Assembly (NCBI GenBank): GCA_021805805.1
Contig: JAJZEB010000006.1
Span: forward strand, 1 to 64,000
Length of the DNA stretch: 64,000 bases
Source: Pseudomonadota bacterium
GTDB lineage: Bacteria; Pseudomonadota; Gammaproteobacteria; Burkholderiales; Burkholderiaceae_C
Direction: 5' to 3'
This document shows positions 3,141 to 3,396 of this stretch, in pieces. Made by a program: the position numbers and the translations under genes. Numbering within the stretch: position 1 is the stretch's first letter; each line of letters opens with the position of its first letter. Under the pieces are notes generated by a model that saw only the letters and a program-made list of their open reading frames with translations, was not told the origin of the DNA and ran no database searches.

Positions 3141-3156
3141 TGCAGCTTTCGTGCCA
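3141..3156 (-). promoter_or_regulatory. Sigma-54 (RpoN) promoter of the porin-glnK-amtB operon
   Basis: On the minus strand TGGCACGAAAGCTGCA matches the -24/-12 consensus TGGCAC-N5-TTGCA with one mismatch and the exact GG-N10-GC spacing. The predicted start site is near 3129, about 65 bases before the porin gene start. About 80 and 100 bases upstream lie two GGTGCA half-sites (3209-3214 and 3229-3234, 20 bases apart); the first is paired with TGCGCT at 3196-3201, loosely like an NtrC enhancer. Confidence 0.8.
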
Positions 3157-3396
3157 GGCATATCCCATGGTCATTGGCGCGTCTCGTGCGGCAGGTGCGC
3201 TTCATTGCGGTGCATGCCGCCCATCCGCGGTGCACGCACCTGCCGCGCCGCACTGCCGTGCGTTGCTGCGGTGCCGCCCGCGCAACAGCACGGCGCACGC
3301 GGGCTTGTTCGCGCGGCGGCGCGTTGTCGCCGACAATAGCGGCGTGGACGCGTTGCGCGCCCAACCCGCCTCGGAACCCGCTACCGCCCGACCGCC

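Follow-up and report, generated by a model that had tools for sequence, protein, structure and literature searches.

In the window, by which we mean the whole 64-kb stretch of DNA analysed here, a gene for a predicted BBP2-family outer-membrane porin precedes glnK and amtB behind a sigma-54 promoter, in a slot that genomes of the same family mostly fill with an unrelated barrel protein. From the comparisons reported below, we consider it highly probable that a promoter of the NtrC-P/sigma-54 type produces one porin–glnK–amtB transcript and that the porin admits a nitrogen source. In the mechanism that we propose, nitrogen shortage would place phosphorylated NtrC (NtrC-P) at a pair of weak sites, some 80 and 100 bp upstream, from where it would open sigma-54 RNA polymerase at 3141–3157; a single transcript would then supply the BBP2 porin, GlnK and AmtB, with the porin raising the permeability of the outer membrane for a nitrogen source, and GlnK and AmtB controlling and performing ammonium uptake across the inner membrane. 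The elements concerned are as follows.

192–1592, minus strand: amtB, ammonium transporter (PF00909, TIGR00836), 28 bp after glnK
1621–1959, minus strand: glnK, PII nitrogen regulator (PF00543), 32 bp after the porin gene
1992–3065, minus strand: predicted BBP2-family outer-membrane porin, 357 amino acids, signal-like N-terminus (PF07642, 170.5 bits)
3141–3157, minus strand: predicted sigma-54 (−24/−12) promoter, CTGGCACGAAAGCTGCA, with 12 of 13 consensus letters, kept in relatives
3198–3214, minus strand: proximal NtrC-like site, TGCACCGCAATGAAGCG, with a good 5' half and a poor 3' half (best-site weight-matrix p = 0.07)
3218–3234, minus strand: distal NtrC-like site, TGCACCGCGGATGGGCG, weight-matrix score 7.2, 20 bp from the proximal site
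3397–3654, plus strand: ubiK (BMFP; PF04380), divergent and outside the operon transcript, a conserved neighbour by synteny
3706–5217: comM-like gene after ubiK, outside the operon transcript, a conserved operon neighbour

A predicted porin gene leads the glnK–amtB operon

The operon of a BBP2 porin, glnK and amtB that an earlier note on this DNA had described is supported by comparison with about 100 loci; its three genes match PF07642, PF00543 and PF00909 and are separated by gaps of 32 and 28 bp. The porin scores far above the gathering score of PF07642 (26.2 bits), with positions 2–339 of the 339-position profile covered, and its strand-rich sequence ends in F; AlphaFold2 with 8 sequences gave a pLDDT of 35, and a profile search of solved structures with the porin returned chance matches only, mostly T-cell receptors. 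We infer that the protein is located in the outer membrane.

Two unrelated barrel families share one slot

Among 90 genomes of the window's family, 69 have a TorF-type putative porin (TIGR02001) immediately before glnK, 19 have no recognised porin there and 2 have a BBP2 porin, namely the window's own genome and one other of its genus. Similarity of proteins and gene order hint that the genome belongs to the Burkholderiales. TIGR02001 has no match anywhere in the window's genome, and an hhalign comparison of the TorF and BBP2 profiles detected no homology (probability 7.8%). The window and the TorF loci nevertheless have the same order in common, that is, a sigma-54 site, an outer-membrane protein gene, glnK and amtB, beside ubiK–comM, and, judged by these profiles, two unrelated barrel families are exchanged at one regulated locus. 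Many genomes place an outer-membrane protein gene between a sigma-54/NtrC promoter and glnK–amtB, which makes the layout given in the earlier note less isolated than was supposed there.

The 19 family genomes that have the promoter and glnK–amtB without a recognised porin indicate that the system can exist without one, which argues against an obligatory role of the porin. A locus from a sister genus (L047, G050:C1) has the promoter directly before glnK and no porin, and a second member of the genus (G166) carries the BBP2 porin; the pair points to a recent loss or gain of the porin.

A BBP2 subfamily is linked to glnK–amtB

A profile built from the window's BBP2 group and searched against the order, class and phylum found strong relatives in other families at each of these levels. 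Of the strong order- and class-level loci (L135–L170, nearly all from other families), 30 of 36 adjoin glnK–amtB or amtB. A sigma-54 site lies about 1.2 kb before the porin end at 26 glnK-linked BBP2 loci, the ubiK/comM neighbour is retained at 21 linked loci, and two genomes from outside the class carry the BBP2–glnK–amtB block, one of them with a site matching 12 of 13 letters. Weak BBP2 matches are mostly unlinked, so the link to glnK–amtB is a property of this subfamily rather than of PF07642 in general.

In a tree of GlnK and AmtB, which is midpoint-rooted, built from partial sequences and thus indicative only, the window's clade joins BBP2-type loci of other families, apart from the TorF loci of its own family, and three BBP2 loci are nested among TorF loci; this nesting implies that either the porin type was switched or the operons moved.

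Other arrangements were also seen. In three loci of one family (L157, L160 and L161, family f43) the order is rearranged: amtB comes immediately ahead of the BBP2 gene, and glnK was not found at the locus. In L157 the gene that follows looks like metH. Two further loci (L152 and L154, from G471 and G413) hold several BBP2-type copies that are unlinked to glnK–amtB and lie beside an apparent GGDEF-domain gene.

What the porin may admit

That pore and transporter are so constantly paired in many bacterial families suggests a route through the outer membrane dedicated to nitrogen. Given the genes that the porin accompanies, the simplest substrate is ammonium, and it is plausible from this gene association that the porin carries it. 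A stronger version, in which the distinct BBP2 subfamily would be a dedicated, nitrogen-regulated outer-membrane ammonium pore forming a functional system with AmtB–GlnK, and TorF would have taken the same role independently elsewhere, we put forward tentatively and regard as less likely than not. General porins already admit ammonium, so a dedicated pore may be unneeded.

There is a serious possibility, though likewise less likely than not, that the promoter is nitrogen-controlled and that the porin serves amino acids, peptides, urea or nitrate, not ammonium for AmtB. The substrate cannot be read from the sequence, a search for a solved relative of the porin found none, and the presence of two unrelated pore families in one slot would fit a general small-solute pore. 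Against this, the BBP2 subfamily travels with glnK–amtB, and its linked members have a net negative charge (mean −8), which is loosely consistent with cations, although the unlinked ones are negative too. Net charge fails to separate the two groups, with means of −8.0 for amtB-linked and −9.4 for unlinked BBP2 porins; TorF is near neutral.

How ammonium passes the outer membrane when it is scarce is seldom considered: neither 'outer membrane' nor 'porin' appears in a 2023 review of prokaryotic ammonium transporters (PMC10433425). With two unrelated barrel families in one nitrogen-controlled slot, the idea of a dedicated outer-membrane step can be tested directly in cultured relatives.

NtrC as the likely activator

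The genome encodes one rpoN (PF04552, 211.6 bits) and an NtrC (TIGR01818, 698 bits, above the cut-off), the latter within a glnA–ntrB–ntrC cluster. Upstream of glnA, the NtrC palindromes CGCACCGAAACGGTGCG and TGCACCGGGCGGGTGCG lie 30 bp apart and are followed by ATGGCATGGTTTCTGCT and then glnA; by its sequence, this promoter is of the classic NtrC/sigma-54 type and a good positive control.

Before the porin gene, GGTGCA half-sites are found at 3209–3214 and 3229–3234, some 80 and 100 bases before the expected start, in the same orientation and thus not as the two halves of one palindrome. Compared with the palindrome TGCACC-N5-GGTGCA, each of the window's sites agrees in 9 of 12 letters, with one good half and a poor partner arm. 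We scored sites with an NtrC weight matrix trained on other loci, with the window's clade left out: most BBP2 loci reach p = 0.003, whereas the window reaches only p = 0.07. Four close relatives (L013–L016) have the same paired sites with the same 20-bp spacing and best-site p values of 0.003–0.017, and a palindrome with at least 10 of 12 letters occurs within 180 bp upstream of the porin or glnK promoter in 77% of loci, compared with 2.4% of shuffles. A genome-wide scan for GCAC-N7-GTGC gave 203 palindromes and is too unspecific for mapping the regulon. A perfect 12-bp inverted repeat (GCGGCAGGTGCG and CGCACCTGCCGC, at 3188–3199 and 3235–3246) brackets both NtrC-like sites.

NtrC control of the operon is likely because of the comparison with relatives, the window by itself being weak. 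We think it improbable that sigma-54 drives the operon through another activator, a reading under which the window's NtrC sites would be too degenerate to serve (the better one at p = 0.07) and for which the genome, with 12 strong matches to sigma-54 activators, has candidates to offer; the corresponding region carries clear NtrC palindromes in relatives and in most of the family, the genome has an NtrC of its own, and the nlmA operon of Herbaspirillum seropedicae is NtrC-dependent (PMC3023670).

Nitrogen control of the porin is well supported, since the glnK–amtB-linked subfamily usually stands behind sigma-54 sites and since the nlmA operon and a BBP2 porin of K. stuttgartiensis offer precedents. 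The earlier note had claimed such control, and about 100 comparative loci, RpoN, NtrC and the glnA control promoter now speak for it; it had also placed the GGTGCA half-sites correctly, and their assignment as NtrC-type sites is supported by way of the relatives, the window's sites alone being degenerate and non-significant.

The sigma-54 element

The element recognised in the earlier note, TGGCACGAAAGCTGCA at 3141–3156 on the minus strand, does have the exact GG-N10-GC spacing of a −24/−12 promoter; with the preceding C it reads CTGGCACGAAAGCTGCA and agrees with the consensus YTGGCACGNNNNTTGCW in 12 of the 13 specified letters. On both strands of the window it is the only sigma-54 site of this quality, and an equally good one arose in 14 of 3,000 dinucleotide shuffles of the intergenic region (331 bp). 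With a start some 12 bases downstream of the GC element, the predicted 5' untranslated region of the porin gene would be about 65 nt long. The 3.27-Mb genome holds TGGCACGNNNNYTGCW 12 times and the reversed control pattern 6 times, an enrichment of only about twofold for the motif by itself, and it is position and conservation, beyond the motif itself, that set the site above chance.

Ten relatives have the same porin–glnK–amtB block: seven are MAG loci from public data, and three are additional genomes. In nine of them the 17-base site is unchanged or differs by a single letter, and in the tenth (L040) it differs by three letters; the flanking DNA, unlike the site, has drifted. When the 90 family genomes were taken with the relatives (100 glnK loci, two duplicates included), 96 had a site with at least 10 of 13 letters where one would be expected, ahead of the first gene; of these sites, a few of the weakest, such as L092, may be spurious. 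The evidence supports 3141–3157 as a sigma-54 promoter, in itself an ordinary kind of switch, and a chance match within GC-rich DNA, for which the merely twofold genome-wide frequency might speak, is rejected as very improbable on the 96 loci and the 14 of 3,000 shuffles.

One TorF locus (L113, G068:C41) has two sigma-54-like sites, the first ahead of the TorF gene and the second 98 bp upstream of glnK, together with a wider gap than usual between porin and glnK; a second promoter for glnK–amtB is possible there. The window's own genome has other sigma-54-like sites at G000:C193:6238–6253 (L012) and G000:C160:35333–35348 (L011), both less than 1 kb from sigma-54 activator genes, the one on C193 with a sensor-like N-terminal region.

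Comparison with known systems

In E. coli, glnK–amtB is under sigma-54/NtrC control as here, in an operon without a porin gene. The TorF–glnK–amtB loci of the window's family share its slot, its sigma-54/NtrC promoter and its comM–ubiK neighbour, and differ in having TorF where the window has the non-homologous BBP2 porin.

The closest described operon is nlmA(orf1)–glnK–amtB of H. seropedicae, which is NtrC-dependent and induced 21-fold under nitrogen limitation; NlmA is membrane-associated, has no assigned function and is most probably periplasmic according to its authors (PMC3023670). There, too, a gene for a membrane-associated protein precedes glnK–amtB, but it is nlmA and not a BBP2 porin gene; our guess, judged from the family-wide pattern, is that NlmA is of the TorF type. 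KSMBR1_3177 of K. stuttgartiensis is, like the window's porin, a BBP2-domain porin; it is highly upregulated under ammonium limitation, and its authors suggested ammonium influx (PMC7438415). It belongs to an anammox planctomycete, and the passages considered here do not describe it within an amtB operon (PMC7438415).

Our search of the open literature, beyond which most subscription journals lie, turned up no account of a BBP2–glnK–amtB operon or of two unrelated barrels replacing each other at a single regulated locus. Within that literature, NtrC dependence is known for an operon in which the gene of a membrane-associated protein is followed by glnK and amtB; the form with BBP2, and the replacement of one barrel by the other, appear to be new.
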